Positions 1 through 33,852 of a stretch of DNA of 33,852 bases are shown piece by piece (position 1 is the stretch's first letter; every line of letters starts with the position of its first letter). The DNA is taken from positions 1 to 33,852 of the forward strand of contig JANYGO010000228.1 in NCBI GenBank assembly GCA_025362325.1. Reading direction: 5' to 3'. Under the pieces are notes generated by a model, which was given only the letters and a program-made list of their open reading frames with translations, searched no databases and had not been told where the DNA came from. The DNA comes from Cyanobacteriota bacterium (GTDB lineage: Bacteria; Cyanobacteriota; Cyanobacteriia; Cyanobacteriales; Microcoleaceae). A program made the position numbers and the translations under genes.

Positions 1-805
1 AGTATTTGAACTAGGAAAAGCCTTTAGAAATGAAGGTATTGATAGCACTCACAATCCCGAGTTTACCTCTTTAGAAGTTTACCAAGCTTATGCTGATGTT
101 TTCGACATTTTAGGAGTTGTCGAAGATGTGATGTGTTTCGCGGCGGCGGCTGTCTTTGGCGATGTCCTGGAAATTGAGAATCAGGGAGAAACGATTAGTT
201 TAGAGCGCAAGTTCGACTACAGCGAAAAATATCCGGGTTTTAGCGGCAAACACTGGCAAGTGAAAACGATGGTAGAAGCTGTTAGAGACGAGTTTGGGCT
301 GGATTTTGACAGTTTGGACTTAGAAAGTGCGATCGCCTCTGCAACCAAACTAGAAATGCACCTATCTCAGCTAGAAAAACAGAGTTTAGGCTACGTACTC
401 TACGCAGTTTTTGACAAATTAGTTGTCCCCAAACTAATTCAACCGACATTCATCATCGACTATCCTGTCGAAGTCAGTCCCTTAGCCAAAGGACACCGCA
501 GCAAACCGGGATTTGTAGAACGTTTCGAGCTGTTTATTAACGGTACGGAATACTCGAATGGCTTCTCGGAATTGAACGATCCGAAAGAGCAAAGAAAGCG
601 GTTTGAGGAACAGTTAGCACAGAAAAATGCAGGCGATGACGAAGCGCATCCCATGGATGAAGACTTTATTCAAGCTTTATCTTTGGGAATGCCTAATTGT
701 GCGGGAATGGGCATCGGCGTAGACAGATTGGTGATGCTTTTAACTAATACTCAAAGCATCCGCGATGCGGTGATGTTCCCGACAATGCGGCCTGTTAAAG
801 ATTGA
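1..805 (+). CDS. lysS: Lysyl-tRNA synthetase, class II, C-terminal part (5' end cut by window edge)
   Basis: This enzyme charges tRNA-Lys with lysine in the cytoplasm, using ATP. The reading frame is open from base 2, upstream of any internal Met. It begins with class II motif 2 (FRNEGIDSTHNPEFT, bases about 26-70) and ends with motif 3 (GMGIGVDRLVMLLTN) and the RDAVMFPTMRP tail typical of bacterial LysRS. Between them lies the usual catalytic-domain insertion, including FIIDYPVEVSPLAK and an ELFINGTEYSNGFSELNDP block. About 267 residues are present of the roughly 500 to 560 expected, so the N-terminal OB-fold anticodon-binding domain and motif 1 lie outside the window. The stop is TGA at 803-805. 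The identity is secure. The truncation is a window edge rather than a mutation, and the mirror copy is cut at the same base. Confidence 0.95.
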   Translation, partial: VFELGKAFRNEGIDSTHNPEFTSLEVYQAYADVFDILGVVEDVMCFAAAAVFGDVLEIENQGETISLERKFDYSEKYPGFSGKHWQVKTMVEAVRDEFGLDFDSLDLESAIASATKLEMHLSQLEKQSLGYVLYAVFDKLVVPKLIQPTFIIDYPVEVSPLAKGHRSKPGFVERFELFINGTEYSNGFSELNDPKEQRKRFEEQLAQKNAGDDEAHPMDEDFIQALSLGMPNCAGMGIGVDRLVMLLTNTQSIRDAVMFPTMRPVKD

Positions 806-821
806 TTGAAGTAGCTTTTTA

Positions 822-899
822 AACCGCAGATATTTGCGGATGAACACAGATTAACGCAGATAGAATTTCATCTGTGTTAATCTGCGTTAATCTGCGGTT
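822..899. repeat. Inverted repeat downstream of lysS
   Basis: The arms AACCGCAGAT and ATCTGCGGTT bracket internal ATTAACGCAGAT / ATCTGCGTTAAT type repeats, so the 78-base stretch can form a long imperfect hairpin just after the lysS stop. It may act as a terminator-like or mRNA-stabilising structure, but it has no clear U tract and resembles a dispersed genomic repeat. The rest of the 806-1128 gap holds the heptamer array at 1056-1097 and no convincing gene. Confidence 0.6.
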
Positions 900-1055
900 C
901 AAAACATCTTCTTTCATATTAAATAGCCTTTCAAGCGAAAGATGAGGTACTATCGGGCATAGGGAATAGGGCATAGGCCTCCGTGGGCATACCTCACTTT
1001 TGTGAGAACCGCTATATCGTTTCCGGTTGCATCGGAATAATAAAATCGAGTCAGT

Positions 1056-1097
1056 AGTCAACAGTCAACAGTCAACAGTCAACAGTCAACAGTCAAC
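1056..1097. repeat. Heptamer tandem repeat, six units of AGTCAAC
   Basis: Six uninterrupted AGTCAAC units run head to tail. This is a short tandemly repeated repetitive (STRR-like) heptamer of the type common between cyanobacterial genes. It lies in the gap between the convergent lysS and TerD genes. A related heptamer (TTGACAG, one base different on the opposite strand) lies downstream of dnaN. Confidence 0.9.
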
Positions 1098-1128
1098 AAT
1101 TGCGGTATGAGTGCAACCGGAATTAATC

Positions 1129-1728
1129 TCACCGCATAAACGAACCGACAACGCCATTCATATCTTCAGTCAAAGGATTTCCCAAAGCCTTAAATTTCCA
1201 CTCGCTACCTTCTCGATAAACTTCTCCCATCAACATATTTAATTTGCCTTCATAGGAAGGGTCATTTGACAAACGATAGCGAGCGATTTCTTTCCCACCT
1301 CCATCTACAGCCCTCACGTAAGCATTTTCTACCAGGCCAAAATGCTGTTTTCTTTCTTTGCCATTGTAGATATTTACACCCAAGATAATTTTATGATATT
1401 GTGCTGGCAACGAGCCGAGTTTCACCAATATTTGTTCGTCGTCACCGTCTCCCTCCCCGGTGAGATTGTCGCCGGAGTGTACAACAGTTTTGTCCTTTGA
1501 TTCTAAATGAGAGTAATAAATTACATCTTCTTTGTAAGCTTTTAATTTGCCATTTTCCCCCAGCAGCAAAGCGTAGGAATCTAGGTCAAAATTTAAACCG
1601 CTGCTTCTGGCGAAAAGACCTTTTTTAACTTGCGCGACATCCCAGCCCAAAGCCATTGTCAATCGGGATAAGTCGTATTCACTTTTGCTGAGTACGATTG
1701 ATTGTCCTTTTGTCAAGTTGATAGCCAT
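1129..1728 (-). CDS. TerD-domain (tellurium resistance / stress) protein
   Basis: The 199-residue protein is a single TerD domain. It starts MAINLTKGQSIVLSK, has an ALGWD motif, a FDLDSYALLLGENGK strand and an acidic GDNLTGEGDGDDEQ loop. In this family the Asp-rich loops bind calcium. TerD proteins are cytoplasmic and are linked to tellurite resistance, phage and colicin tolerance and general stress, but the biochemical activity is not settled. The ATG is preceded by an A-rich leader with no strong Shine-Dalgarno. The next gene upstream on the same strand (1958-2530) is a second TerD protein, and the two are separated by a palindromic repeat. The LDSYALLLG version of the motif departs from the more usual LDASVFMLG, so this may be a divergent paralogue. 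The family call is secure and the role is inferred. Confidence 0.9.
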   Translation of the reverse strand: MAINLTKGQSIVLSKSEYDLSRLTMALGWDVAQVKKGLFARSSGLNFDLDSYALLLGENGKLKAYKEDVIYYSHLESKDKTVVHSGDNLTGEGDGDDEQILVKLGSLPAQYHKIILGVNIYNGKERKQHFGLVENAYVRAVDGGGKEIARYRLSNDPSYEGKLNMLMGEVYREGSEWKFKALGNPLTEDMNGVVGSFMR

Positions 1729-1820
1729 TGTTTTGTGATTTTGTAAGGTTTATCGTGCAATATGGGATTGATCAAAAGACCGGGCGGTTTCAACAGTACG
1801 TCCGATTTGTTTATTCCCAA

Positions 1821-1922
1821 GAGATCCCTTGCAGCATCCCCCTTAAGAAAGGGGACGAAAGATAACTCTCTTGTCCCCTCCCTTTTTTAAGGGGGAGTAG
1901 GGGGCAAGCTAAGGGGGGATCG
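1821..1922. repeat. Palindromic intergenic repeat (copy A, TerD-TerD gap)
   Basis: Short inverted arms built from CATCCCCCTTAA and TTAAGGGGGA surround a core with CTTGTCCCC. It resembles the elements at 3185-3275 and 7903-7987, which share the order GATCCC, CATCCCCC, CTTGTCCCC, GATC. It is a dispersed cyanobacterial small repeat lying between two co-oriented TerD genes. Confidence 0.7.
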
Positions 1923-1957
1923 ACTTTATCTGAACCGTATTGTTTTATATCGACCTT

Positions 1958-2530
1958 TTATCCGGCATACTTGTCTACAAAGCTTTGCAAGCCTGCATTG
2001 TAGCCTTCTCCGACTGCTTGGAACCTCCACTCGCCATCTTTCTTGTAAAGTCTGCCAAATTCCATCGCAGTTTCCCTCGAAAAATCCTCATCCAAATCGT
2101 ACTTAGTGACTTCTACATTAGTCGTAGTATCATAAATCCTGATAAAAGCATTGCGAACTTGACCAAAGCCCTGTCTCCTCGATTCAGCTTCATGAATTGT
2201 CACCACAAACACAATTTCTTGAACGGCTGGATCGACTTTGGTTAAATCGACTGTAACGGTTTCATCATCGCCCAATCCTTCTCCGGTTGTGCTATCTCCC
2301 AGGTGTATTACAGAACCGTCCGGCGACTGTTTGTTATTGTAGAAAACAAAGTATTTTTCGCTGGGAATTTTGCCATCAGAACCCAACATAAACACGGAAG
2401 CATCTAAGTCAAAAGCCCCGCCTGTGTCTGAATCATTGGTATCCCATCCCAAACCAATCCCGGCATTTTTCAGCCCTGGTGCTTCTTTAGATAGATTGAT
2501 TCTCCCGCCTTTTTCCAAGTTGATAGACAT
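1958..2530 (-). CDS. TerD-domain protein (TerD/TerE type)
   Basis: The 190-residue protein has the canonical TerD layout: MSINLEKGGRINLSK at the start, GLGWDTND, FDLDASVFMLGSDGK, and the acidic calcium-loop signature GDSTTGEGLGDDE. It is closer to classical TerD/TerE than its neighbour at 1129-1728. It is expected to be a cytoplasmic calcium-binding stress protein. The upstream sequence, read on the minus strand, carries GGAGGGCG close before the ATG, a good Shine-Dalgarno that supports this start. It lies about 55 bases downstream of def on the same strand, so co-transcription from def is plausible. Family membership is secure, while any role in metal or phage tolerance is family knowledge only. 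Confidence 0.92.
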   Translation of the reverse strand: MSINLEKGGRINLSKEAPGLKNAGIGLGWDTNDSDTGGAFDLDASVFMLGSDGKIPSEKYFVFYNNKQSPDGSVIHLGDSTTGEGLGDDETVTVDLTKVDPAVQEIVFVVTIHEAESRRQGFGQVRNAFIRIYDTTTNVEVTKYDLDEDFSRETAMEFGRLYKKDGEWRFQAVGEGYNAGLQSFVDKYAG

Positions 2531-2585
2531 TCGCCCTCCTATTCACAACATCAATCTTAGTTACCGATCGCCATTATATCAATTC

Positions 2586-3119
2586 TCACAGGAGCTTGAC
2601 AAATTGCTGCTGGTACTCATCCTCTGACATCAGTTCTCGGGTATTTTCCACCCTGTCTAAAAATACGATGCCCTCTAAATGGTCGTATTCGTGTTGAAAA
2701 ATCCGGGCTACAAAGTCTGTAAGTTCTTGTCTGTGGACTTTGCCGTCTCTACAGGTGTATTCTATCTCGATCGCCCTACTTCTGGGCACCAACCCGCGAA
2801 TCCCCGGAATACTCAAACAGCCTTCCCAGTCTTTGACTGTTTCTGTGGATGCAGCGAGAATCCGGGGATTAATCATCGCCGTCGGTTCCATGTGCGGTGC
2901 TTGGGGATAGCGCAGGTTGGGGCGGGATGCGACGATGAACAGCCGATCGCACTTCGCCGCTTGGGGGGCCGCAATCCCTACTCCGTTCGCCTGTTGTACG
3001 GTAAAAATCAGGTTGTCGATTAGCTGTTTAATGCGATCGTCCTTAACATTCTCCACAACTTGAGACGGTTGGCGCAGTACGGGATTTCCTAATTGAGAAA
3101 TTTGCAAGATTTCAGGCAT
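2586..3119 (-). CDS. def: Peptide deformylase
   Basis: This enzyme removes the formyl group from the initiator Met of nascent proteins at the ribosome. All three metalloprotease motifs are present in the 177 residues: GVGIAAPQ (about 46-53), EGCLS (99-103, metal ligand Cys101) and QHEYDH (about 142-147, ligands His143 and His147, catalytic Glu144). The length is normal. The tail EDEYQQQFVKLL resembles other cyanobacterial deformylases. The gene follows htrA on the same strand after a repeat-containing gap of about 250 bases and precedes a TerD gene. No defect is visible. Confidence 0.96.
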   Translation of the reverse strand: MPEILQISQLGNPVLRQPSQVVENVKDDRIKQLIDNLIFTVQQANGVGIAAPQAAKCDRLFIVASRPNLRYPQAPHMEPTAMINPRILAASTETVKDWEGCLSIPGIRGLVPRSRAIEIEYTCRDGKVHRQELTDFVARIFQHEYDHLEGIVFLDRVENTRELMSEDEYQQQFVKLL

Positions 3120-3184
3120 ATTAATTAGTTATTGGTGTTAAGTTAAGCCTCGAAGCATTAAAAAATCTCGTTTTTATCCTCTTG

Positions 3185-3275
3185 CCAGATCCCCCTCGCA
3201 TCCCCCGAAAGCAAGGGGGACTTTGATCAGAATCTTGTCCCCCCCGAAAGCAAGGGGGGTGCCAGGGAGATCTGG
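3185..3275. repeat. Palindromic intergenic repeat (copy B, htrA-def gap)
   Basis: The outer arms CCAGATC and GATCTGG are perfect complements. Inside are two GAAAGCAAGGGGG modules and a CTTTGATCAGAATCTTGTCC core. The architecture matches copy C at 7903-7987, where the GAAAGCAA motif is replaced by TTAATAA. Confidence 0.8.
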
Positions 3276-3366
3276 GCCTAATCGTCAAACAGCAGTCTCT
3301 GACTACGTTTGAGCTAAAACTGAAACGAATCGGTAATGAGGAATTGGTAATTAATCTTCCTTCTTC

Positions 3367-4608
3367 CTATCGAACTTGTTGAACTGGCAAACTCCCCGGT
3401 TTAACAGTCAAATTAACTATTTGCCCATTCCGATTAATCTCCATTTGCAACAAGCCGCCAACCTTAGCATTTTGCACGAATTCCTGAACAGCTTCCGACT
3501 GAATAATCGGCTGATTATTCAGCTTTTGAATCACATCACCAGCCCGCAAACCTGCTGCGGCTGCGGGAGAATTAGGAACCACACTCACAATCGCCACACC
3601 GCGATCGACTGCAACTCGCAGATTACTGTTAGCATTGCTGTTAATTTGCTGCTTAACCTCCGCAGTCAGCGTCGCCATTTCAATTCCCAAATAAGCGTGT
3701 TCGACTTTCCCAGTCGAAATCAGTTCCTTCGCCACCTGTTGCGCCGCCTGAATTGGAATCGCAAACCCCAATCCTTGCGCGCCTTGAATAATCGCCGTAT
3801 TCATCCCAATAACTTCGCCCGAAGCATTCAGCAGCGGGCCGCCGGAATTCCCCGGATTGATTGCAGCGTCTGTTTGAATAAAACCGATCCGCTTGTCAGG
3901 TACGCCCACCTCGCTACTCGATCGCCCTGTAGCGCTAATTATCCCCGCAGTTACGGAATTGTCCAAACCCAAAGGATTGCCGATCGCGATCGCCCATTCC
4001 CCAGGCAACAGCTTATCAGAATTGCCGATCGCCACCACGGGCAGAGCATTCGCCTCAATCTTCACCACAGCAACATCCGTCACCTTATCCGCCCCCAACA
4101 CCTGGCCCTGATAGCCGCGGCCGTCCCTGAGAGTTACATTTACCGTATCCGCGCCCTCTACAACGTGAGCATTCGTAAGAATCACGCCGTCAGCCCCGAT
4201 CACAAAACCCGAACCAGTGCCCCGTTCAATCCCGCCCCGGCCGCCCGAATTCGGTTGTCCACCAAAAAAATCCTCCGGCGAAACACCTTGATTTCCCGGT
4301 TTTACCCGGCGCGAAGCATCTATCCGCACCACCGCCGGGCCAACTTTGGCCACCGCAGCCACAATAAAATTTACATTAGCCGTATCCCCCGACAAGGGCA
4401 CAGGCGGCAAGACTTTGCTAGCTTGAGGCTTACTATTAGCAGGCACTTGCAATCTCGGTTGCAGCGCCGTTTGTCCTGAATCGCCCGAATTTGCACGTAA
4501 TTGAGAAACCGACAGCCGATCGCCCAACATGGCGGCTCCGGCTCCCGTTACCAGCAGCAATATGTAAATTGCCGGTTGCTTCCAAAATTTGCCAGTAGAA
4601 CTCTTCAT
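3367..4608 (-). CDS. HtrA/Deg-family trypsin-like serine protease with PDZ domain
   Basis: This is an envelope or lumen quality-control protease that degrades misfolded proteins. The 413 residues begin with a positively charged stretch and a hydrophobic segment (about 12-28), either a signal peptide or a membrane anchor. A low-complexity linker follows, then an S1C protease domain with the triad His148 (NAHVVEG), Asp178 (TDVAVVK) and Ser255 ([10 protein letters not shown]). One C-terminal PDZ domain covers about 305-400 ([20 protein letters not shown]). A single PDZ fits the cyanobacterial HhoA/HhoB/HtrA group, and I cannot tell which paralogue it is. It diverges from dnaA across 207 bases and reads towards def. 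No catalytic residue is missing. Confidence 0.95.
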
Positions 4609-4815
4609 CGCGACGTTTTAAGGCTTTCCTGCCAAATTTAAATACTTGCCTAGCAGCTCTTCGATACCTGCTATATCCACAGATCCGCAAAATTTTTGGG
4701 CGATGGCGTCCCGCCCCGCAAGCTACGGCAGACTCCCTTAAACTTTAGCATCAGAAGACTAAACTTTCTAGACTGTAGAATTAATCTCTTGAATGCCGAT
4801 CGGCAAAGGTAAGCA
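4609..4815. promoter_or_regulatory. Divergent htrA/dnaA intergenic region
   Basis: These 207 bases separate the divergent starts of htrA and dnaA and must hold both promoters. ATATCCACA at 4673-4681 differs by one base from the classical TTATCCACA DnaA box and could mediate dnaA autoregulation, but a single near-match is weak evidence. I could not place -10/-35 elements with confidence. Confidence 0.5.
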
Positions 4816-6186
4816 GTGGACATTACCCTCGAAAGTCTGTGGAATCAGATACTTGAACGTCTCCAGGTACAACTGAGCAGACCTAGCTTTGAGACGTGGA
4901 TCAAAACAGCCAGGGCTGAACAACTGGAAAATAACTGTTTGATCGTCAGCGCCCCCAACCCCTTTGCTCGCAATTGGTTGCAGAAATATTACGTCAAAAT
5001 CATTGCCGATGCAGTTGAAGAAATTCTTGGCTATCCCGTAGAAATTTACTTGACAATTGCCGGGGGCACCGAAACAGGTGGCAGCAACGACTCCGCCATG
5101 ATTTGGCCGTCCCCGATCGCCGATCGCCCCGAAAGCCACTCGCTACACCCACCTAAACCAGCCCATTTAAACCCCAAATACGTATTTTCCCGCTTTGTCG
5201 TCGGTTCCAACAACCGCATGGCTCACGCAGCATCCCTCGCCGTAGCCGAGTCTCCGGGCCGAGAATTCAATCCCCTCTTTTTGTGCGGAGGCGTTGGTTT
5301 GGGGAAAACTCATTTGATGCAGGCGATCGGTCATTATCGCTTAGAAATCGACCCCAACGCCAAAATTTTTTACGTTTCTACTGAGAAATTCACTAACGAT
5401 TTAATCGCAGCTATTCGCAAAGATAGTATGCAAAGTTTCCGCGATCACTATCGCGATGCCGATGTTTTATTAATAGATGATATCCAGTTTATCGAAGGCA
5501 AAGAATACACGCAAGAAGAATTTTTTCACACTTTCAATACTTTGCACGAAGCCGGAAATCAAGTCGTTTTAGCTTCCGATCGCCCGCCGCAGCAAATCCC
5601 CCGCCTGCAAGAGCGTTTGTGTTCCAGATTTTCCATGGGATTAATTGCCGATATTCAATTGCCAGACTTAGAAACTAGGATGGCAATTTTGCAGAAAAAA
5701 TCTGAATATGAAAATATGAGGCTGCCGCGAGATGTGATTGAATACATTGCTTCTAGCTATGCTTCCAATGTGCGGGAATTAGAAGGAGCTTTGATACGGG
5801 CCGTAGCATATCTTTCCATTACCGGTTTGCCGATGACAGTTGAGAATATCGCCCCAGTTTTGAATCCGCAAACTGAAACCGTACAGGCGACTCCCGATGC
5901 GGTAATTGCAGTTGTGGCCGAGGCGTTTGATGTTTCTGTGGAAGATTTGAAGGGGATTTCCCGCAGGCGAGAAATTAGCTTTGCCCGTCAAATTGGGATG
6001 TATTTAATTCGGCAACATACTGGTTTGAGTTTGCCAAAAGTTGGCGAAGTTTTCGGCGGCAAGGATCACACGACTGTGCTTTACAGTTGCGATAAAATTG
6101 CTCAGTTGCGCAACACCGATCCAACTTTAGCCCAAACTTTGCGTCAATTGAGCGATCGAATTAACGTTGTCAGCCGCAAAAGTTGA
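4816..6186 (+). CDS. dnaA: Chromosomal replication initiator DnaA
   Basis: DnaA is the AAA+ ATPase that binds DnaA boxes at oriC, melts DNA and loads helicase. The 456 residues show all domains: domain I (1-85, starting [17 protein letters not shown]), a short linker, the AAA+ domain with Walker [10 protein letters not shown] (about 158-166) and Walker B LLIDDIQF (about 218-225), and DNA-binding domain IV with the signature [15 protein letters not shown] (from about 414). The start is GTG, chosen because it gives the conserved N-terminus and has AAAGGTAAG just upstream. Instead of dnaN, a repeat cluster and an accessory block follow it. The protein appears intact. The window also carries an identical mirror copy. 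Confidence 0.98.
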
Positions 6187-6270
6187 GCAGAACAAAGAAG
6201 GAAGAAGGAAGCCATGACAGGGATTCGGACTGGTGCATTTCAATGAGTATAAATATACCCGTAGGGGCGA

Positions 6271-6436
6271 AGCATTTCGGTAGTCAATCTCTGATTATCA
6301 CTAATAAATTATGTGCCGAAATGCTTCGCCCTTGCAAAAATGAGATGCACCCAGCATTTCGGTAGTCAATCTCTGGTTATCACGAATAAATTATGTGCCG
6401 TCAGGTGCTTCGCCCTTGCCAAATAGAGATGCACCC
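6271..6436. repeat. Two direct copies of an 83-base repeat downstream of dnaA
   Basis: Copies at about 6271-6353 and 6353-6436 share AGCATTTCGGTAGTCAATCT, then (with scattered changes) TTATCACTAATAAATTATGT, and end GATGCACCCA. GTAGGGGCGAAGCATTTCGG at 6261-6280 is the inverted partner of the CCGAAATGCTTCGCC segment inside copy 1, so a hairpin is also possible. This is a cyanobacterial interspersed repeat. The 6187-6451 gap contains no convincing gene. Confidence 0.8.
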
Positions 6437-6451
6437 AAGGCTGTTCTGTTG

Positions 6452-7183
6452 TTAGAGTTTTACAGCCTGCGGTAAAGACGCTAACCAATCTTCCCACAAC
6501 TTCCCTGCTTGAACTGATAACTGTCCAGCATAACGAATGGTATCCTCTCGAAGTTTAGCGACTGTGAGATCCGGCGTTGCTCCAATTTCACACGCATGAC
6601 CAATGAACCACCGCTCTAATCCTTGAGCTGTGACTTCTGGATGAAACTGCAATGCTAATCCTGCTTGTTTCCAGGAAAAAGCTTGGTTGTGGTAAATCGC
6701 GCTAGCCGCTAAATGAGTGCTATCAGTAGGCAGATCGAAGGTATCTCCATGCCAGTGGAGAACGGCTGTTTTATCTCCTGCTAAGTGAGCCAGTGCTGTT
6801 TGCTGGCCTTCTAGACTCATCTTTAGAGGAGACCATCCAATCTCTTTTTGCGATCCAGGATAGACTTTCGCCCCTAAAGCACGAGCCATCAACTGTGCCC
6901 CCAAGCAAATCCCTAGCGTAGGCAAATCGTTAGCAAGACGATATTCCAATAGATGTAACTCATCAATTAGGAATGGATAATCTTGCTCATCGTAGGCTCC
7001 AATTGGGCCTCCAAGAATCACTAGCAAATTTGTGTTGCGATCGATCTGAGTCAAATCATCCGATCCAGCTTCTAGATATCTGACTGTGTAGTTTTTGTGA
7101 TGCAATGCTTCAGCTAAAGTTCCCAGATCCTCAAAGGCAATATGTCTAATGACAGTGGCGTGTTTCAAAGTAGTCACCCTCAA
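6452..7183 (-). CDS. Class I glutamine amidotransferase (GMP-synthase-like)
   Basis: This protein probably hydrolyses glutamine to supply ammonia, or acts as a related peptidase. The 243 residues form one GATase1 domain. The nucleophile elbow LGICLGAQL holds Cys93, and the His/Glu partners sit in LQFHPEV (His181, Glu183), so the triad is complete. An oxyanion strand LLVILGGPIGAYD and the WHGDTFDLP segment place it among stand-alone GMP-synthase-like amidotransferases, with no synthetase domain attached. The coding frame overlaps the end of the AurF-like gene by 4 bases, indicating one transcript. The start codon is uncertain: TTG at 7181-7183, or GTG two codons later. The acceptor substrate cannot be named from sequence. 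Confidence 0.88.
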   Translation of the reverse strand: MRVTTLKHATVIRHIAFEDLGTLAEALHHKNYTVRYLEAGSDDLTQIDRNTNLLVILGGPIGAYDEQDYPFLIDELHLLEYRLANDLPTLGICLGAQLMARALGAKVYPGSQKEIGWSPLKMSLEGQQTALAHLAGDKTAVLHWHGDTFDLPTDSTHLAASAIYHNQAFSWKQAGLALQFHPEVTAQGLERWFIGHACEIGATPDLTVAKLREDTIRYAGQLSVQAGKLWEDWLASLPQAVKL

Positions 7184-7719
7184 ATCAATTCGTAATCTGC
7201 GAAAACTTGCTCAATTGTACGATCGTCGAACACTCCAGCGGCTGCAAACATTTTTAAGGTTGGATTGGCAGTTCGTCGAACAAATTTAGCAATTTGGCTG
7301 GGTACGTAAACCTCTTCTAGAATTCCTTCCGAATCGTTTGCATTAAAGCCTAAACGCCGCAGAATACTGTATTCTAATTGGCGATCGGAACCCAGAAATG
7401 CCCAGATTAGTTGTGGCAGTAATTGTCCCATTTCCTCTTGCTCATAGGATGCAAGGCTTTGCCAAAGGATGGGGAACAAGCCACGGAAATAAACGCTGTG
7501 CAACGCTTCGTCAGCCGCATGATCGCCGACAACCGCACGGACAATAGGAGAGACTTGAGGATCGTGGGGAACATTGTTAAGAACCTTTGTCACCAGAGTT
7601 TCTGAGATCGTGACAAAAAACAGTTGAATGAGATGGGGCGACAGCCGAGTTTGATGTTCAGCAATAATTTTCTCGATGAGAACGCTCCTTGACATTAAGG
7701 GAAACAACGTTACAGGCAA
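7180..7719 (-). CDS. AurF-like diiron oxygenase, N-terminally truncated (probable remnant)
   Basis: AurF-type enzymes are cytoplasmic diiron oxygenases that oxidise aryl amines. In this 179-residue product a Glu at 40 (ISETL), then His67, Glu71 and His74 (GDHAADEALH) reproduce the ligand spacing recalled for AurF Glu196, His223, Glu227 and His230. The first ligand pair (a Glu and an ExxH helix) has no counterpart, because the protein starts just before the third ligand helix. Family members are about 300 residues long, so about 120 residues are missing. A MITE-like element begins 77 bases beyond the start codon. An internal ATG at 7693-7695 is an alternative start. The gene is translationally coupled to the amidotransferase. 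It is probably inactive alone. The family assignment is by motif only. Confidence 0.6.
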   Translation of the reverse strand: MPVTLFPLMSRSVLIEKIIAEHQTRLSPHLIQLFFVTISETLVTKVLNNVPHDPQVSPIVRAVVGDHAADEALHSVYFRGLFPILWQSLASYEQEEMGQLLPQLIWAFLGSDRQLEYSILRRLGFNANDSEGILEEVYVPSQIAKFVRRTANPTLKMFAAAGVFDDRTIEQVFADYELI

Positions 7720-7795
7720 TAAATATTTACAATTTTCAACCAGCTCCGTTTCATTTGTTACGAACGTTTACTACTATAGATGATACCGGCTCATT

Positions 7796-8136
7796 GGACT
7801 TATGTAATGATCCAATTCGATATATTTTGAGTGTACCAATTCTGGGATATTTCCTCAGAATGCTTGGTCTTATACCAATTTAATGTGAAGTTCCACATAT
7901 CTCGATCCCCCTCGCATCCCCCTTAATAAGGGGGACTTTGATCGGAATCTTGTCCCCCCCTTATTAAGGGGGGCGCCAGGGCGATCGGATTCTACGGGGC
8001 CTCATAAAAAATTGGTCTTAGTCCTAAAAGTTTCGTTGAAAGTTCGAGATTTATTAAGTAGTCTGAACTGTAATCTTGCCCTTTGTGGCAAATTGGTACA
8101 CAAAAAATATCCTAAATTGGCTCATGACATAAGTCC
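7796..8136. mobile_element. MITE-like non-autonomous element with terminal inverted repeats
   Basis: The left end GGACTTATGTAATGATCCAA and the right end, read inverted (GGACTTATGTCATGAGCCAA), match over about 45 bases, including GTGTACCAATT. Both ends are flanked by ATT (7793-7795 and 8137-8139), a plausible 3-base target duplication. The 341-base interior has no gene but contains palindromic repeat copy C. It lies between the truncated AurF-like gene and the MOSC gene. With the flanking sequence this accounts for the 7720-8177 gap. Confidence 0.65.
7903..7987. repeat. Palindromic intergenic repeat (copy C, inside the MITE-like element)
   Basis: The outer arms CGATC and GATCG enclose two CCTTAATAAGGGGG-type modules around CTTTGATCGGAATCTTGTCC. 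The core is nearly identical to copy B at 3185-3275, so the two belong to one repeat family with variable inner arms. Confidence 0.8.
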
Positions 8137-8177
8137 ATTACTTAGATATGATGGCATCCATTGCACAAATTTTTCTT

Positions 8178-8897
8178 ATGAGTTTGATAGATAGGGCCTA
8201 TTTAGTTTCAATTCAAGTGGGTTTGCCTAGAAATCTAGGGACAGAAAGTGCTCTTAATCCAATGGATCGTCCTTGGTTTACTGGATTTTTTAAAGAGTCG
8301 ATCGATCGCTCTGTATGGCTAGGGAAAACGAATTTAGATGGTGATGGACAAGCCGATTTACGCCATCATGGCGGATCTGAAAAAGCCGTACTTGCTTACG
8401 CGACTGAACATTATCGCGAATGGCAACGGCAATTAATGCTTCCAGAATTAGGGTATGGAGCATTTGGAGAAAACTTCACGATTGTTGGACAAACAGAGTC
8501 GTCAGTCTGTATTGGTGATACCTATGAAATTGGTGATGCTTTAGTTCAAGTTTCCCAACCCCGTCAGCCATGCTGGAAATTGTCGCGACGATGGCGCATT
8601 AAAGATCTCGCGTTGCAGGTGCAACAAAACGGTCGGACGGGCTGGTATTTTCGGGTTTTACGAGAAGGATATGTAGCACCAAATCAACTCATCACTTTAG
8701 TCGATCGCCCCTATCCACAATGGACGATCGCCCGTGCTAATGAAATCATGCATCAACATCTCAAAGATCGCGAACTGGCGACCTCCCTAGCTATATGTCC
8801 ACTGCTGGCTCCCAACTGGCAACATACCTTAGCAAATCGAGCTAATCGAGGCATTAATCCCGATTCTAAACCTCGGTTGATTGGTGAAAATGAATAG
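8178..8897 (+). CDS. MOSC-domain protein, YiiM-like
   Basis: MOSC proteins bind or transfer sulfur/molybdenum cofactor. YiiM-type members confer resistance to N-hydroxylated base analogues through the molybdenum-cofactor-dependent pathway. The product has the MOSC core: KTNLDGDGQADLRHHGG, GYGAFGENFTI, and the conserved cysteine in SQPRQPCWKL. A C-terminal helical segment (TIARANEIMHQHL through the end) fits the 3-alpha extension found in YiiM. I prefer the ATG at 8178 (240 residues, MSLIDRAYLVSIQVG); an in-frame ATG pair at 8148 would add 10 residues. The gene starts 42 bases beyond the MITE-like element, so its promoter may have been replaced or altered. glyA follows 36 bases downstream on the same strand. 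Confidence 0.85.
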   Translation: MSLIDRAYLVSIQVGLPRNLGTESALNPMDRPWFTGFFKESIDRSVWLGKTNLDGDGQADLRHHGGSEKAVLAYATEHYREWQRQLMLPELGYGAFGENFTIVGQTESSVCIGDTYEIGDALVQVSQPRQPCWKLSRRWRIKDLALQVQQNGRTGWYFRVLREGYVAPNQLITLVDRPYPQWTIARANEIMHQHLKDRELATSLAICPLLAPNWQHTLANRANRGINPDSKPRLIGENE

Positions 8898-8933
8898 GTG
8901 AATTTCGAGAAGTAAACCATCTTATATTCCATC

Positions 8934-10229: not shown

Positions 10230-10248
10230 GCAACTTTTACTCTGATCT

Positions 10249-10812: not shown

Positions 10813-10921
10813 AAATGGGAGTGAATTTACCATTTAGATTTTTGCAAATTAAGTGATGTTTATCCAATAATTGAGTAATTAACTTTAATTGGCATCGGAA
10901 CATTTAGTTGATTGATTAGAA

Positions 10922-12190: not shown

Positions 12191-12482
12191 GATATTGCAC
12201 CATTCTCGCTTAACGGGATCTCCGGCCAGTTCCACAATCAAGCTGATTAAACTCATCTGGAGGCGGAAATTATTAATTTCCTCAGTCCAGGGGACTCTGT
12301 GCTAGATTGATTTGTCTAATGTCACGATCTAATTAGTGGCTATTTTTATGTACCAATATGCTGCATATCGATTTAGATAAAACCTCTAAACATCTTCCGT
12401 ATTACCTACAAATATTGGAGCAGATTCGCAATGCGATCGCGTCAGGTACACTAGCGGCAGGTACACAGCTACCTCCCAGTCG

Positions 12483-22931: not shown

Positions 22932-23040
22932 TTCTAATCAATCAACTAAATGTTCCGATGCCAATTAAAGTTAATTACTCAATTATTGGATAAACATCAC
23001 TTAATTTGCAAAAATCTAAATGGTAAATTCACTCCCATTT

Positions 23041-23604: not shown

Positions 23605-23623
23605 AGATCAGAGTAAAAGTTGC

Positions 23624-24919: not shown

Positions 24920-24955
24920 GATGGAATATAAGATGGTTTACTTCTCGAAATTCAC

Positions 24956-25675: not shown

Positions 25676-25716
25676 AAGAAAAATTTGTGCAATGGATGCC
25701 ATCATATCTAAGTAAT

Positions 25717-26057
25717 GGACTTATGTCATGAGCCAATTTAGGATATTTTTTGTGTACCAATTTGCCACAAAGGGCAAGATTACAGTTCAGACTACTTAAT
25801 AAATCTCGAACTTTCAACGAAACTTTTAGGACTAAGACCAATTTTTTATGAGGCCCCGTAGAATCCGATCGCCCTGGCGCCCCCCTTAATAAGGGGGGGA
25901 CAAGATTCCGATCAAAGTCCCCCTTATTAAGGGGGATGCGAGGGGGATCGAGATATGTGGAACTTCACATTAAATTGGTATAAGACCAAGCATTCTGAGG
26001 AAATATCCCAGAATTGGTACACTCAAAATATATCGAATTGGATCATTACATAAGTCC
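25717..26057. mobile_element. MITE-like element (mirror copy)
   Basis: GGACTTATG-type terminal repeats face each other with the AAT/AAT flank (ATT on the other strand). The internal palindromic repeat copy is at 25866-25950. It fills the non-coding gap between the mirror MOSC and AurF-like genes. Confidence 0.62.
25866..25950. repeat. Palindromic repeat copy C (mirror copy)
   Basis: This is the reverse complement of 7903-7987, with CCTTAATAAGGGGG-type modules around the CTTGTCC core. Confidence 0.78.
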
Positions 26058-26133
26058 AATGAGCCGGTATCATCTATAGTAGTAAACGTTCGTAACAAAT
26101 GAAACGGAGCTGGTTGAAAATTGTAAATATTTA

Positions 26134-26673
26134 TTGCCTGTAACGTTGTTTCCCTTAATGTCAAGGAGCGTTCTCATCGAGAAAATTATTGCTGAACATC
26201 AAACTCGGCTGTCGCCCCATCTCATTCAACTGTTTTTTGTCACGATCTCAGAAACTCTGGTGACAAAGGTTCTTAACAATGTTCCCCACGATCCTCAAGT
26301 CTCTCCTATTGTCCGTGCGGTTGTCGGCGATCATGCGGCTGACGAAGCGTTGCACAGCGTTTATTTCCGTGGCTTGTTCCCCATCCTTTGGCAAAGCCTT
26401 GCATCCTATGAGCAAGAGGAAATGGGACAATTACTGCCACAACTAATCTGGGCATTTCTGGGTTCCGATCGCCAATTAGAATACAGTATTCTGCGGCGTT
26501 TAGGCTTTAATGCAAACGATTCGGAAGGAATTCTAGAAGAGGTTTACGTACCCAGCCAAATTGCTAAATTTGTTCGACGAACTGCCAATCCAACCTTAAA
26601 AATGTTTGCAGCCGCTGGAGTGTTCGACGATCGTACAATTGAGCAAGTTTTCGCAGATTACGAATTGATTTGA
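26134..26673 (+). CDS. AurF-like diiron oxygenase, N-terminally truncated (mirror copy)
   Basis: This is the identical 179-residue remnant with the ISETL glutamate and GDHAADEALH ligands but no first ligand pair. It overlaps the mirror amidotransferase by 4 bases. The same truncation in both arms shows that the deletion predates the duplication or read fold-back. Confidence 0.58.
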   Translation: MPVTLFPLMSRSVLIEKIIAEHQTRLSPHLIQLFFVTISETLVTKVLNNVPHDPQVSPIVRAVVGDHAADEALHSVYFRGLFPILWQSLASYEQEEMGQLLPQLIWAFLGSDRQLEYSILRRLGFNANDSEGILEEVYVPSQIAKFVRRTANPTLKMFAAAGVFDDRTIEQVFADYELI

Positions 26674-27401
26674 GGGTGACTACTTTGAAACACGCCACTG
26701 TCATTAGACATATTGCCTTTGAGGATCTGGGAACTTTAGCTGAAGCATTGCATCACAAAAACTACACAGTCAGATATCTAGAAGCTGGATCGGATGATTT
26801 GACTCAGATCGATCGCAACACAAATTTGCTAGTGATTCTTGGAGGCCCAATTGGAGCCTACGATGAGCAAGATTATCCATTCCTAATTGATGAGTTACAT
26901 CTATTGGAATATCGTCTTGCTAACGATTTGCCTACGCTAGGGATTTGCTTGGGGGCACAGTTGATGGCTCGTGCTTTAGGGGCGAAAGTCTATCCTGGAT
27001 CGCAAAAAGAGATTGGATGGTCTCCTCTAAAGATGAGTCTAGAAGGCCAGCAAACAGCACTGGCTCACTTAGCAGGAGATAAAACAGCCGTTCTCCACTG
27101 GCATGGAGATACCTTCGATCTGCCTACTGATAGCACTCATTTAGCGGCTAGCGCGATTTACCACAACCAAGCTTTTTCCTGGAAACAAGCAGGATTAGCA
27201 TTGCAGTTTCATCCAGAAGTCACAGCTCAAGGATTAGAGCGGTGGTTCATTGGTCATGCGTGTGAAATTGGAGCAACGCCGGATCTCACAGTCGCTAAAC
27301 TTCGAGAGGATACCATTCGTTATGCTGGACAGTTATCAGTTCAAGCAGGGAAGTTGTGGGAAGATTGGTTAGCGTCTTTACCGCAGGCTGTAAAACTCTA
27401 A
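26670..27401 (+). CDS. Class I glutamine amidotransferase (mirror copy)
   Basis: This is the identical 243-residue GATase1 with the nucleophile in LGICLGAQL and the HPE partner motif. The start is TTG at 26670, or GTG at 26676; the TTGA overlap with the preceding stop suggests coupled translation. Confidence 0.86.
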   Translation: MRVTTLKHATVIRHIAFEDLGTLAEALHHKNYTVRYLEAGSDDLTQIDRNTNLLVILGGPIGAYDEQDYPFLIDELHLLEYRLANDLPTLGICLGAQLMARALGAKVYPGSQKEIGWSPLKMSLEGQQTALAHLAGDKTAVLHWHGDTFDLPTDSTHLAASAIYHNQAFSWKQAGLALQFHPEVTAQGLERWFIGHACEIGATPDLTVAKLREDTIRYAGQLSVQAGKLWEDWLASLPQAVKL

Positions 27402-27416
27402 CAACAGAACAGCCTT

Positions 27417-27582
27417 GGGTGCATCTCTATTTGGCAAGGGCGAAGCACCTGACGGCACATAATTTATTCGTGATAACCAGAGATTGACTACCGAAATGCT
27501 GGGTGCATCTCATTTTTGCAAGGGCGAAGCATTTCGGCACATAATTTATTAGTGATAATCAGAGATTGACTACCGAAATGCT
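27417..27582. repeat. 83-base direct repeat pair (mirror copy)
   Basis: This is the reverse complement of 6271-6436, again next to the 3' end of dnaA. The same substitutions distinguish the two units in both arms. Confidence 0.78.
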
Positions 27583-27666
27583 TCGCCCCTACGGGTATAT
27601 TTATACTCATTGAAATGCACCAGTCCGAATCCCTGTCATGGCTTCCTTCTTCCTTCTTTGTTCTGC

Positions 27667-29037
27667 TCAACTTTTGCGGCTGACAACGTTAATTCGATCG
27701 CTCAATTGACGCAAAGTTTGGGCTAAAGTTGGATCGGTGTTGCGCAACTGAGCAATTTTATCGCAACTGTAAAGCACAGTCGTGTGATCCTTGCCGCCGA
27801 AAACTTCGCCAACTTTTGGCAAACTCAAACCAGTATGTTGCCGAATTAAATACATCCCAATTTGACGGGCAAAGCTAATTTCTCGCCTGCGGGAAATCCC
27901 CTTCAAATCTTCCACAGAAACATCAAACGCCTCGGCCACAACTGCAATTACCGCATCGGGAGTCGCCTGTACGGTTTCAGTTTGCGGATTCAAAACTGGG
28001 GCGATATTCTCAACTGTCATCGGCAAACCGGTAATGGAAAGATATGCTACGGCCCGTATCAAAGCTCCTTCTAATTCCCGCACATTGGAAGCATAGCTAG
28101 AAGCAATGTATTCAATCACATCTCGCGGCAGCCTCATATTTTCATATTCAGATTTTTTCTGCAAAATTGCCATCCTAGTTTCTAAGTCTGGCAATTGAAT
28201 ATCGGCAATTAATCCCATGGAAAATCTGGAACACAAACGCTCTTGCAGGCGGGGGATTTGCTGCGGCGGGCGATCGGAAGCTAAAACGACTTGATTTCCG
28301 GCTTCGTGCAAAGTATTGAAAGTGTGAAAAAATTCTTCTTGCGTGTATTCTTTGCCTTCGATAAACTGGATATCATCTATTAATAAAACATCGGCATCGC
28401 GATAGTGATCGCGGAAACTTTGCATACTATCTTTGCGAATAGCTGCGATTAAATCGTTAGTGAATTTCTCAGTAGAAACGTAAAAAATTTTGGCGTTGGG
28501 GTCGATTTCTAAGCGATAATGACCGATCGCCTGCATCAAATGAGTTTTCCCCAAACCAACGCCTCCGCACAAAAAGAGGGGATTGAATTCTCGGCCCGGA
28601 GACTCGGCTACGGCGAGGGATGCTGCGTGAGCCATGCGGTTGTTGGAACCGACGACAAAGCGGGAAAATACGTATTTGGGGTTTAAATGGGCTGGTTTAG
28701 GTGGGTGTAGCGAGTGGCTTTCGGGGCGATCGGCGATCGGGGACGGCCAAATCATGGCGGAGTCGTTGCTGCCACCTGTTTCGGTGCCCCCGGCAATTGT
28801 CAAGTAAATTTCTACGGGATAGCCAAGAATTTCTTCAACTGCATCGGCAATGATTTTGACGTAATATTTCTGCAACCAATTGCGAGCAAAGGGGTTGGGG
28901 GCGCTGACGATCAAACAGTTATTTTCCAGTTGTTCAGCCCTGGCTGTTTTGATCCACGTCTCAAAGCTAGGTCTGCTCAGTTGTACCTGGAGACGTTCAA
29001 GTATCTGATTCCACAGACTTTCGAGGGTAATGTCCAC
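27667..29037 (-). CDS. dnaA: Chromosomal replication initiator DnaA (mirror copy)
   Basis: This is the identical 456-residue DnaA with a GTG start at 29035-29037, Walker [10 protein letters not shown] and the domain [11 protein letters not shown] signature. Two identical dnaA genes facing each other around two identical origins would be extraordinary in a real chromosome. This supports an artefact. Confidence 0.94.
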
Positions 29038-29244
29038 TGCTTACCTTTGCCGATCGGCATTCAAGAGATTAATTCTACAGTCTAGAAAGTTTAGTCTTCT
29101 GATGCTAAAGTTTAAGGGAGTCTGCCGTAGCTTGCGGGGCGGGACGCCATCGCCCAAAAATTTTGCGGATCTGTGGATATAGCAGGTATCGAAGAGCTGC
29201 TAGGCAAGTATTTAAATTTGGCAGGAAAGCCTTAAAACGTCGCG
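29038..29244. promoter_or_regulatory. Divergent dnaA/htrA intergenic region (mirror copy)
   Basis: This is the reverse complement of 4609-4815, with the possible DnaA box at 29172-29180. Confidence 0.45.
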
Positions 29245-30486
29245 ATGAAGAGTTCTACTGGCAAATTTTGGAAGCAACCGGCAATTTACATATTGCTGCT
29301 GGTAACGGGAGCCGGAGCCGCCATGTTGGGCGATCGGCTGTCGGTTTCTCAATTACGTGCAAATTCGGGCGATTCAGGACAAACGGCGCTGCAACCGAGA
29401 TTGCAAGTGCCTGCTAATAGTAAGCCTCAAGCTAGCAAAGTCTTGCCGCCTGTGCCCTTGTCGGGGGATACGGCTAATGTAAATTTTATTGTGGCTGCGG
29501 TGGCCAAAGTTGGCCCGGCGGTGGTGCGGATAGATGCTTCGCGCCGGGTAAAACCGGGAAATCAAGGTGTTTCGCCGGAGGATTTTTTTGGTGGACAACC
29601 GAATTCGGGCGGCCGGGGCGGGATTGAACGGGGCACTGGTTCGGGTTTTGTGATCGGGGCTGACGGCGTGATTCTTACGAATGCTCACGTTGTAGAGGGC
29701 GCGGATACGGTAAATGTAACTCTCAGGGACGGCCGCGGCTATCAGGGCCAGGTGTTGGGGGCGGATAAGGTGACGGATGTTGCTGTGGTGAAGATTGAGG
29801 CGAATGCTCTGCCCGTGGTGGCGATCGGCAATTCTGATAAGCTGTTGCCTGGGGAATGGGCGATCGCGATCGGCAATCCTTTGGGTTTGGACAATTCCGT
29901 AACTGCGGGGATAATTAGCGCTACAGGGCGATCGAGTAGCGAGGTGGGCGTACCTGACAAGCGGATCGGTTTTATTCAAACAGACGCTGCAATCAATCCG
30001 GGGAATTCCGGCGGCCCGCTGCTGAATGCTTCGGGCGAAGTTATTGGGATGAATACGGCGATTATTCAAGGCGCGCAAGGATTGGGGTTTGCGATTCCAA
30101 TTCAGGCGGCGCAACAGGTGGCGAAGGAACTGATTTCGACTGGGAAAGTCGAACACGCTTATTTGGGAATTGAAATGGCGACGCTGACTGCGGAGGTTAA
30201 GCAGCAAATTAACAGCAATGCTAACAGTAATCTGCGAGTTGCAGTCGATCGCGGTGTGGCGATTGTGAGTGTGGTTCCTAATTCTCCCGCAGCCGCAGCA
30301 GGTTTGCGGGCTGGTGATGTGATTCAAAAGCTGAATAATCAGCCGATTATTCAGTCGGAAGCTGTTCAGGAATTCGTGCAAAATGCTAAGGTTGGCGGCT
30401 TGTTGCAAATGGAGATTAATCGGAATGGGCAAATAGTTAATTTGACTGTTAAACCGGGGAGTTTGCCAGTTCAACAAGTTCGATAG
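29245..30486 (+). CDS. HtrA/Deg-family serine protease (mirror copy)
   Basis: This is the identical 413-residue protease: an N-terminal hydrophobic segment, the triad in NAHVVEG, TDVAVVK and NPGNSGGP, and one PDZ domain. It reads towards the mirror def gene on the plus strand. Confidence 0.92.
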
Positions 30487-30577
30487 GAAGAAGGAAGATT
30501 AATTACCAATTCCTCATTACCGATTCGTTTCAGTTTTAGCTCAAACGTAGTCAGAGACTGCTGTTTGACGATTAGGC

Positions 30578-30668
30578 CCAGATCTCCCTGGCACCCCCCT
30601 TGCTTTCGGGGGGGACAAGATTCTGATCAAAGTCCCCCTTGCTTTCGGGGGATGCGAGGGGGATCTGG
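30578..30668. repeat. Palindromic repeat copy B (mirror copy)
   Basis: This is the reverse complement of 3185-3275, with CCAGATC / GATCTGG outer arms, between the mirror htrA and def. Confidence 0.78.
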
Positions 30669-30733
30669 CAAGAGGATAAAAACGAGATTTTTTAATGCTT
30701 CGAGGCTTAACTTAACACCAATAACTAATTAAT

Positions 30734-31267
30734 ATGCCTGAAATCTTGCAAATTTCTCAATTAGGAAATCCCGTACTGCGCCAACCGTCTCAAGTTGTGG
30801 AGAATGTTAAGGACGATCGCATTAAACAGCTAATCGACAACCTGATTTTTACCGTACAACAGGCGAACGGAGTAGGGATTGCGGCCCCCCAAGCGGCGAA
30901 GTGCGATCGGCTGTTCATCGTCGCATCCCGCCCCAACCTGCGCTATCCCCAAGCACCGCACATGGAACCGACGGCGATGATTAATCCCCGGATTCTCGCT
31001 GCATCCACAGAAACAGTCAAAGACTGGGAAGGCTGTTTGAGTATTCCGGGGATTCGCGGGTTGGTGCCCAGAAGTAGGGCGATCGAGATAGAATACACCT
31101 GTAGAGACGGCAAAGTCCACAGACAAGAACTTACAGACTTTGTAGCCCGGATTTTTCAACACGAATACGACCATTTAGAGGGCATCGTATTTTTAGACAG
31201 GGTGGAAAATACCCGAGAACTGATGTCAGAGGATGAGTACCAGCAGCAATTTGTCAAGCTCCTGTGA
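30734..31267 (+). CDS. def: Peptide deformylase (mirror copy)
   Basis: This is the identical 177-residue deformylase with GVGIAAPQ, EGCLS and QHEYDH. Its orientation here (plus strand, followed by both TerD genes) makes the likely def-terD-terD transcription order easy to read. Confidence 0.93.
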   Translation: MPEILQISQLGNPVLRQPSQVVENVKDDRIKQLIDNLIFTVQQANGVGIAAPQAAKCDRLFIVASRPNLRYPQAPHMEPTAMINPRILAASTETVKDWEGCLSIPGIRGLVPRSRAIEIEYTCRDGKVHRQELTDFVARIFQHEYDHLEGIVFLDRVENTRELMSEDEYQQQFVKLL

Positions 31268-31322
31268 GAATTGATATAATGGCGATCGGTAACTAAGATT
31301 GATGTTGTGAATAGGAGGGCGA

Positions 31323-31895
31323 ATGTCTATCAACTTGGAAAAAGGCGGGAGAATCAATCTATCTAAAGAAGCACCAGGGCTGAAAAATGCCGGGATTGGT
31401 TTGGGATGGGATACCAATGATTCAGACACAGGCGGGGCTTTTGACTTAGATGCTTCCGTGTTTATGTTGGGTTCTGATGGCAAAATTCCCAGCGAAAAAT
31501 ACTTTGTTTTCTACAATAACAAACAGTCGCCGGACGGTTCTGTAATACACCTGGGAGATAGCACAACCGGAGAAGGATTGGGCGATGATGAAACCGTTAC
31601 AGTCGATTTAACCAAAGTCGATCCAGCCGTTCAAGAAATTGTGTTTGTGGTGACAATTCATGAAGCTGAATCGAGGAGACAGGGCTTTGGTCAAGTTCGC
31701 AATGCTTTTATCAGGATTTATGATACTACGACTAATGTAGAAGTCACTAAGTACGATTTGGATGAGGATTTTTCGAGGGAAACTGCGATGGAATTTGGCA
31801 GACTTTACAAGAAAGATGGCGAGTGGAGGTTCCAAGCAGTCGGAGAAGGCTACAATGCAGGCTTGCAAAGCTTTGTAGACAAGTATGCCGGATAA
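31323..31895 (+). CDS. TerD-domain protein, TerD/TerE type (mirror copy)
   Basis: This is the identical 190-residue product. On this strand the Shine-Dalgarno reads directly as AGGAGGGCGA just before the ATG. The acidic GDSTTGEGLGDDE loop is intact. Confidence 0.9.
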   Translation: MSINLEKGGRINLSKEAPGLKNAGIGLGWDTNDSDTGGAFDLDASVFMLGSDGKIPSEKYFVFYNNKQSPDGSVIHLGDSTTGEGLGDDETVTVDLTKVDPAVQEIVFVVTIHEAESRRQGFGQVRNAFIRIYDTTTNVEVTKYDLDEDFSRETAMEFGRLYKKDGEWRFQAVGEGYNAGLQSFVDKYAG

Positions 31896-31930
31896 AAGGT
31901 CGATATAAAACAATACGGTTCAGATAAAGT

Positions 31931-32032
31931 CGATCCCCCCTTAGCTTGCCCCCTACTCCCCCTTAAAAAAGGGAGGGGACAAGAGAGTTATCTTTCGTCC
32001 CCTTTCTTAAGGGGGATGCTGCAAGGGATCTC
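31931..32032. repeat. Palindromic repeat copy A (mirror copy)
   Basis: This is the reverse complement of 1821-1922, between the two mirror TerD genes. Confidence 0.68.
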
Positions 32033-32124
32033 TTGGGAATAAACAAATCGGACGTACTGTTGAAACCGCCCGGTCTTTTGATCAATCCCATATTGCACGA
32101 TAAACCTTACAAAATCACAAAACA

Positions 32125-32724
32125 ATGGCTATCAACTTGACAAAAGGACAATCAATCGTACTCAGCAAAAGTGAATACGACTTATCCCGATTGACAATGG
32201 CTTTGGGCTGGGATGTCGCGCAAGTTAAAAAAGGTCTTTTCGCCAGAAGCAGCGGTTTAAATTTTGACCTAGATTCCTACGCTTTGCTGCTGGGGGAAAA
32301 TGGCAAATTAAAAGCTTACAAAGAAGATGTAATTTATTACTCTCATTTAGAATCAAAGGACAAAACTGTTGTACACTCCGGCGACAATCTCACCGGGGAG
32401 GGAGACGGTGACGACGAACAAATATTGGTGAAACTCGGCTCGTTGCCAGCACAATATCATAAAATTATCTTGGGTGTAAATATCTACAATGGCAAAGAAA
32501 GAAAACAGCATTTTGGCCTGGTAGAAAATGCTTACGTGAGGGCTGTAGATGGAGGTGGGAAAGAAATCGCTCGCTATCGTTTGTCAAATGACCCTTCCTA
32601 TGAAGGCAAATTAAATATGTTGATGGGAGAAGTTTATCGAGAAGGTAGCGAGTGGAAATTTAAGGCTTTGGGAAATCCTTTGACTGAAGATATGAATGGC
32701 GTTGTCGGTTCGTTTATGCGGTGA
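32125..32724 (+). CDS. TerD-domain protein, divergent paralogue (mirror copy)
   Basis: This is the identical 199-residue product, with ALGWD, FDLDSYALLLG and the GDNLTGEGDGDDEQ loop. It is convergent with the mirror lysS across the heptamer array. Confidence 0.88.
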   Translation: MAINLTKGQSIVLSKSEYDLSRLTMALGWDVAQVKKGLFARSSGLNFDLDSYALLLGENGKLKAYKEDVIYYSHLESKDKTVVHSGDNLTGEGDGDDEQILVKLGSLPAQYHKIILGVNIYNGKERKQHFGLVENAYVRAVDGGGKEIARYRLSNDPSYEGKLNMLMGEVYREGSEWKFKALGNPLTEDMNGVVGSFMR

Positions 32725-32755
32725 GATTAATTCCGGTTGCACTCATACCGCAATT

Positions 32756-32797
32756 GTTGACTGTTGACTGTTGACTGTTGACTGTTGACTGTTGACT
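32756..32797. repeat. Heptamer array GTTGACT (mirror copy)
   Basis: Six units, the same count as at 1056-1097. Confidence 0.88.
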
Positions 32798-32953
32798 ACT
32801 GACTCGATTTTATTATTCCGATGCAACCGGAAACGATATAGCGGTTCTCACAAAAGTGAGGTATGCCCACGGAGGCCTATGCCCTATTCCCTATGCCCGA
32901 TAGTACCTCATCTTTCGCTTGAAAGGCTATTTAATATGAAAGAAGATGTTTTG

Positions 32954-33031
32954 AACCGCAGATTAACGCAGATTAACACAGATGAAATTCTATCTGCGTT
33001 AATCTGTGTTCATCCGCAAATATCTGCGGTT
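32954..33031. repeat. Inverted repeat downstream of lysS (mirror copy)
   Basis: This is the reverse complement of 822-899. The 32725-33047 gap contains only this and the heptamer array. Confidence 0.58.
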
Positions 33032-33047
33032 TAAAAAGCTACTTCAA

Positions 33048-33852
33048 TCAATCTTTAACAGGCCGCATTGTCGGGAACATCACCGCATCGCGGATGCTTT
33101 GAGTATTAGTTAAAAGCATCACCAATCTGTCTACGCCGATGCCCATTCCCGCACAATTAGGCATTCCCAAAGATAAAGCTTGAATAAAGTCTTCATCCAT
33201 GGGATGCGCTTCGTCATCGCCTGCATTTTTCTGTGCTAACTGTTCCTCAAACCGCTTTCTTTGCTCTTTCGGATCGTTCAATTCCGAGAAGCCATTCGAG
33301 TATTCCGTACCGTTAATAAACAGCTCGAAACGTTCTACAAATCCCGGTTTGCTGCGGTGTCCTTTGGCTAAGGGACTGACTTCGACAGGATAGTCGATGA
33401 TGAATGTCGGTTGAATTAGTTTGGGGACAACTAATTTGTCAAAAACTGCGTAGAGTACGTAGCCTAAACTCTGTTTTTCTAGCTGAGATAGGTGCATTTC
33501 TAGTTTGGTTGCAGAGGCGATCGCACTTTCTAAGTCCAAACTGTCAAAATCCAGCCCAAACTCGTCTCTAACAGCTTCTACCATCGTTTTCACTTGCCAG
33601 TGTTTGCCGCTAAAACCCGGATATTTTTCGCTGTAGTCGAACTTGCGCTCTAAACTAATCGTTTCTCCCTGATTCTCAATTTCCAGGACATCGCCAAAGA
33701 CAGCCGCCGCCGCGAAACACATCACATCTTCGACAACTCCTAAAATGTCGAAAACATCAGCATAAGCTTGGTAAACTTCTAAAGAGGTAAACTCGGGATT
33801 GTGAGTGCTATCAATACCTTCATTTCTAAAGGCTTTTCCTAGTTCAAATACT
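33048..33852 (-). CDS. lysS: Lysyl-tRNA synthetase, C-terminal part (mirror copy, cut by window edge)
   Basis: This is the same partial frame as 1-805, entering from the right edge with motif 2 FRNEGIDSTHNPEFT and ending with motif 3 GMGIGVDRL. Both arms lose the gene at the same base. That is expected if the contig is a folded read and not expected for two independent genomic edges. Confidence 0.92.
   Translation of the reverse strand, partial: VFELGKAFRNEGIDSTHNPEFTSLEVYQAYADVFDILGVVEDVMCFAAAAVFGDVLEIENQGETISLERKFDYSEKYPGFSGKHWQVKTMVEAVRDEFGLDFDSLDLESAIASATKLEMHLSQLEKQSLGYVLYAVFDKLVVPKLIQPTFIIDYPVEVSPLAKGHRSKPGFVERFELFINGTEYSNGFSELNDPKEQRKRFEEQLAQKNAGDDEAHPMDEDFIQALSLGMPNCAGMGIGVDRLVMLLTNTQSIRDAVMFPTMRPVKD

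Follow-up and report, generated by a model that had tools for sequence, protein, structure and literature searches.

Palindromic contigs have been reported as a likely assembly error in SPAdes assemblies of Mycobacterium bovis; the available part of that account gives 81 such contigs and states that sequences with confirmed palindromes were removed and that some remained in the analysis (PMC9455707). A few palindromic contigs were also found in single-cell genomes of hot-spring cyanobacteria and, in the accessible text of that study, were deemed very likely assembly artifacts (PMC12755884). In a third paper, repeat content is related to fragmentation only, as far as its available passages go (PMC6350398). 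To judge from these portions of the first two reports, the kind of artifact is therefore already known.

Here, we describe contig C241 of the cyanobacterial draft assembly G000 (6.37 Mb in 396 contigs, completeness 94.9%, contamination 1.3%). The stretch of DNA analyzed, hereafter the window, is the whole of this contig from its first to its last base (33,852 bp), and it carries dnaA and dnaN in each of two mirrored arms. Like the M. bovis contigs in the account available, C241 is a single palindrome over its entire length, with its genes duplicated as reverse complement; unlike C241, those contigs come from another organism and a named assembler, and in that account their turning point was not traced to a natural palindrome (PMC9455707). 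The hot-spring contigs, as far as they are described in the accessible text, are alike in palindromic form, and theirs come from single-cell genomes (PMC12755884).

We consider it highly probable that the palindrome of C241 is an assembly fold-back artifact that arose at a 46-bp natural palindrome, and that it is no feature of the chromosome. This reading is drawn from the contig sequences. As in a fold-back, the contig is identical to its reverse complement, with neither mismatches nor a spacer, its axis lies in a short palindrome, and a candidate for the continuation is found elsewhere in G000.

Extent of the palindrome in C241

Compared with its own reverse complement, the window has 0 mismatches over 33,852 bases. 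The axis falls between positions 16926 and 16927 with no spacer, and the initial annotation, which had described a perfect, spacerless palindrome occupying the whole window, is thus exact at every base. A perfect palindrome of 33.9 kb cannot have originated by chance. The identity of dnaA and dnaN, both named in the annotation, was confirmed by Pfam domains. It had also pointed out that the two arms stop at an identical base within lysS, which is true but constitutes no independent observation, because the entire contig is palindromic. With the two arms set aside, nothing in G000 matches the arm better than an insertion sequence (IS) copy at 90%. The features on which the argument turns are the following.

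1 to 805, + strand: 3' part of lysS with a class II tRNA synthetase domain (2 to 805), truncated by the contig end
1 to 16926, + strand: arm taken to be real, lysS to dnaN (gene calls and domain matches)
15499 to 16677, + strand: dnaN (DNA polymerase III beta subunit), the gene nearest the axis (three DNA_pol3_beta domains)
16904 to 16949, no strand assigned: 46-bp perfect palindrome downstream of dnaN (dnaN flank compared with C328 flank)
16927 to 33852, - strand: arm copy, very probably artifactual, the exact reverse complement of the first arm (0 mismatches of 33,852)

The axis palindrome and the sequence beyond dnaN

The 46-bp palindrome at the axis consists of two halves of 23 bases and is loopless in both contigs that carry it, C241 and the 4,609-bp contig C328. 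Compared with each other, the flanks on the dnaN side and in C328 are identical for 23 bases as far as the axis and diverge thereafter, and the positions immediately beyond the 46 bp show no complementarity; the real element therefore seems to be a 46-bp palindrome that lacks a loop. C328 terminates in ...AGGTATGTTGTTGCGCGAAGAGCGCTCTTCGCG, which comprises 33 of the 46 palindrome bases and extends 10 past the axis, and because these 33 bases also form the end of C328, the palindromic stretch is probably real. When up to 3 mismatches were allowed, the 22-base half-palindrome had three matches in the whole of G000, one in each arm of C241 and one at the end of C328. Contigs were further sampled as the first 20 kb of each of 121 of the 396 contigs (C241 and 120 others), of which 11, all shorter than 3 kb, came as N and were dropped, leaving 110. 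On the plus strand of these sampled stretches, the word GTTGTTGCGC occurs in C241 and C328 only.

In the relative G016, dnaN is followed by two hairpins that have loops and are related to the axis palindrome (locus L019, positions 2715-2855; GGTACGTTGTTGCGCTTCAGCGCTC... / GGTACGTTGTTGCGC... and a near copy). The two sides of the G016 stems differ from those of the window in a matched way, a pattern like that of a family of small hairpin elements.

The best match in G000 to the gene that follows dnaN in the relative G001 lies in C328 at 3297-4509 (89%). The corresponding open reading frame (ORF) of C328, at 2996-4513, matched histidine-kinase families, below the curated cut-offs among the matches shown. 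In three relatives read base by base (G001, G010, and G016), a short repeat-rich spacer separates dnaN from a convergent gene that matches the C328 histidine kinase. When the dnaN end of the arm was used as the query, 54 of 59 genomes gave a match, counting the window's own; some of these matches (e.g., in G006 and G040) represent only a short dispersed repeat near the axis and not dnaN.

The dnaN locus was obtained from 27 of 28 same-genus relatives (L010-L036) and compared by blastn with the kinase region of C328. The kinase gene is convergent downstream of dnaN in 21 of these 27 loci, and in three of the remaining six (L014, L030, and L034) the contig ends within about 0.35 kb of dnaN. A second set of 26 named loci, which overlaps the first in genomes, has the kinase gene after dnaN in 19 cases; three loci are cut (L122, L138, and L140), and in four (L132, L133, L135, and L144) the gene was not seen after dnaN. 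The 25 closest named dnaN loci (L120-L143 and L145) show 90-97% protein identity and are labeled Microcoleus, Tychonema, Lyngbya, Oscillatoriales, and the like, which identifies the source as a cyanobacterium of the Microcoleus type. Two relatives with single-contig assemblies of 6.7-6.8 Mb (G018 and G020) have dnaN together with the kinase gene in the contig interior. No second dnaN match was present in the 53 loci of the two overlapping sets, within flanks of about 1.5 kb or 4 kb that are shorter at contig ends.

The shared palindrome and the gene order in relatives make C328 the likely continuation of dnaN in G000. As a contig of the same assembly that ends inside the axis palindrome, it is a good candidate for the different true sequence that the initial annotation had predicted beyond 16926.

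Proposed origin of the fold-back

The true chromosomal order would be dnaN, the 46-bp perfect palindrome, and the convergent histidine-kinase gene. With K below 46, the k-mers of the palindrome would, as a set, equal their own reverse complements, so that a path coming from dnaN can reach either the kinase gene or the opposite strand of dnaN itself. The assembler would have turned back at this point, writing the arm twice as C241, and the kinase side would have been split off as C328, cut 33 bases into the palindrome. Coverage at the palindrome may have been low, and the error probably occurred at an early small-K stage; a K of about 33 would fit, because the end of C328 lies that many bases inside the palindrome.

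The ends of the sampled contigs bear on the kind of assembly. Among 193 of them, exact overlaps do not exceed 141 bases, except that of C241 with itself. The joins comprise two of 141 bases and three of 19-22 bases, two of the latter joining a contig end to itself at a short palindrome, and the forks comprise ten of 137-141 bases, three of them exactly 141. This ceiling is characteristic of a de Bruijn graph whose final K was 141. A toy graph of this kind, built from the inferred true locus, is ambiguous at the palindrome node for K of 21, 29, 33, 39, and 45 and gives one linear unitig for K of 47, 55, 59, and 141. At the ambiguous K values, the kinase-side unitig stops exactly K bases into the palindrome. 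When the kinase-side edge was withheld, the graph at K of 39 and 45 turned a 2,000-bp arm into a perfect spacerless palindrome of 4,000 bp.

The initial annotation had already favored an artifact, and this view gains support from C328 and from the dnaN-kinase order in most relatives examined. Among the causes that it had put forward, the best supported is now that of an assembler returning along the opposite strand, given the overlaps of up to 141 bases and a toy graph that reproduces the fold-back.

Several observations weigh against a graph error at the palindrome. At K of 21-33, the toy graph also breaks at a TTGACAG tandem repeat beside dnaN, and its palindromic unitig reaches only 460-484 bp. 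Palindromes of 44 bp in C56 and 52 bp in C239 were assembled through without folding; a palindrome is therefore not sufficient, and poor local coverage, which we assume, probably contributed. It is conceivable that a loop was skipped in both C241 and C328, since the G016 hairpins have loops, and an error arising purely in the graph would become less likely if the true palindrome has one. Finally, the position of the kinase gene is not universal, as L028, L035, and L036 lack it in about 1.5 kb after dnaN.

Whole-contig palindromy could be assessed in 106 of the sampled contigs, as the midpoints of four contigs longer than 40 kb (C20, C63, C65, and C73) lie beyond the sampled stretch. C241 is the only whole-contig palindrome among the 106. 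Contig C340 (L257, positions 3983-4004) stops in a perfect 22-bp palindrome, as C328 stops within a palindrome, and its end suggests a possible second graph break of this kind.

The fold-back might instead predate the assembly, strand switching or self-priming at the palindrome during library preparation or amplification having given chimeric reads that the assembler then followed. Such reads would lead to an identical-looking contig, and the axis does sit at a strong hairpin; a loop in the true hairpin, as in G016, would lend this origin more weight. A self-priming hairpin, however, usually retains some unpaired loop bases, of which the axis has none, and amplification chimeras arising genome-wide should be commoner than the single affected contig among the 106. 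We regard a chimera formed before assembly as unlikely. Of the two sources that had been suggested along these lines, an unsplit long read and an amplification chimera, neither is needed to explain the contig, and the chimera keeps the small probability just given.

A real inverted duplication of the dnaA-dnaN region, present in some or all chromosome copies, could also have begun at the 46-bp palindrome. Short palindromes are known as starting points of inverted duplications, and the axis lies at one; cyanobacteria are polyploid, and a mixture of chromosome forms could persist in this way. A duplication nevertheless needs unique sequence beyond both of its outer ends, whereas the arms of C241 end at the same base of lysS and the remainder of lysS was not found in G000. 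The lack of any difference or spacer between the arms speaks against it as well, as do the ordinary dnaN-kinase junction represented by C328 and the lack of a second dnaN match in the 53 loci of relatives, within the flanks covered. A real duplication is therefore very improbable, and there is just as slight a chance that C241 has caught a minority of chromosome copies carrying one. The recent inverted amplification entertained in the initial annotation is accordingly rejected, there being no unique sequence outside the arms and an ordinary junction in C328.

Reading around the closed hairpin end of a linear replicon would likewise yield a spacerless palindrome, but this earlier proposal of a telomere deserves almost no credence, contradicted as it is by the kinase gene that lies beyond the palindrome in C328, in the order common to most relatives examined, and by the interior position of both genes in the single contigs of G018 and G020.

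Outer end and gene content of the arm

If C241 is an assembly fold-back, its outer end in lysS would be an ordinary gap that has been mirrored. The upstream part of lysS was sought in G000 with the 1,500 bp upstream of the G010 lysS match, and apart from the ends of the window itself it matched short repeats only; the outer end therefore looks like a gap. In the contig sequences, lysS is thus probably truncated by an ordinary gap that is displayed twice through the mirroring. The lysS and dnaN matches are 15.5 kb apart in the window (1-15499) vs about 7-9 kb in six relatives with both genes on one contig (G002, G004, G005, G012, G013, and G017; in G012 the distance was measured across the contig ends, if circular). 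The arm therefore holds several kilobases of extra sequence.

Read inward, the arm opens with the 3' part of lysS and continues with two TerD genes, peptide deformylase (def), a trypsin-like/PDZ protease, and dnaA. These are followed by a glutamine amidotransferase (GATase), an AurF-like protein, MOSC, SHMT, and a glycine transporter-like protein, and then by a class-III aminotransferase, a MocR-like gene interrupted by an IS, and dnaN. An Rfam scan of the arm gave no match at the gathering score.

The IS is a DDE_3 transposase element at 12581-13749 (mirrored at 20104-21272) with 33-bp terminal inverted repeats that are 85% complementary. It sits in a MocR/PdxR-like regulator gene, whose pieces at 12358-12627, 13562-14509, and 14513-14947 match different parts of one family. 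Near copies of the element (89-90%) are present on C292 and C91, and the ends of related elements (83-85%) are found at the ends of several contigs.

C241 provides an example of how a de Bruijn assembly may be made to reverse its course by a short perfect chromosomal palindrome. In the record of this genome, dnaA, dnaN, and about a dozen further genes would each have a spurious second copy, which would inflate the apparent duplication. The finding thus matters for data hygiene and not for the biology of the organism.
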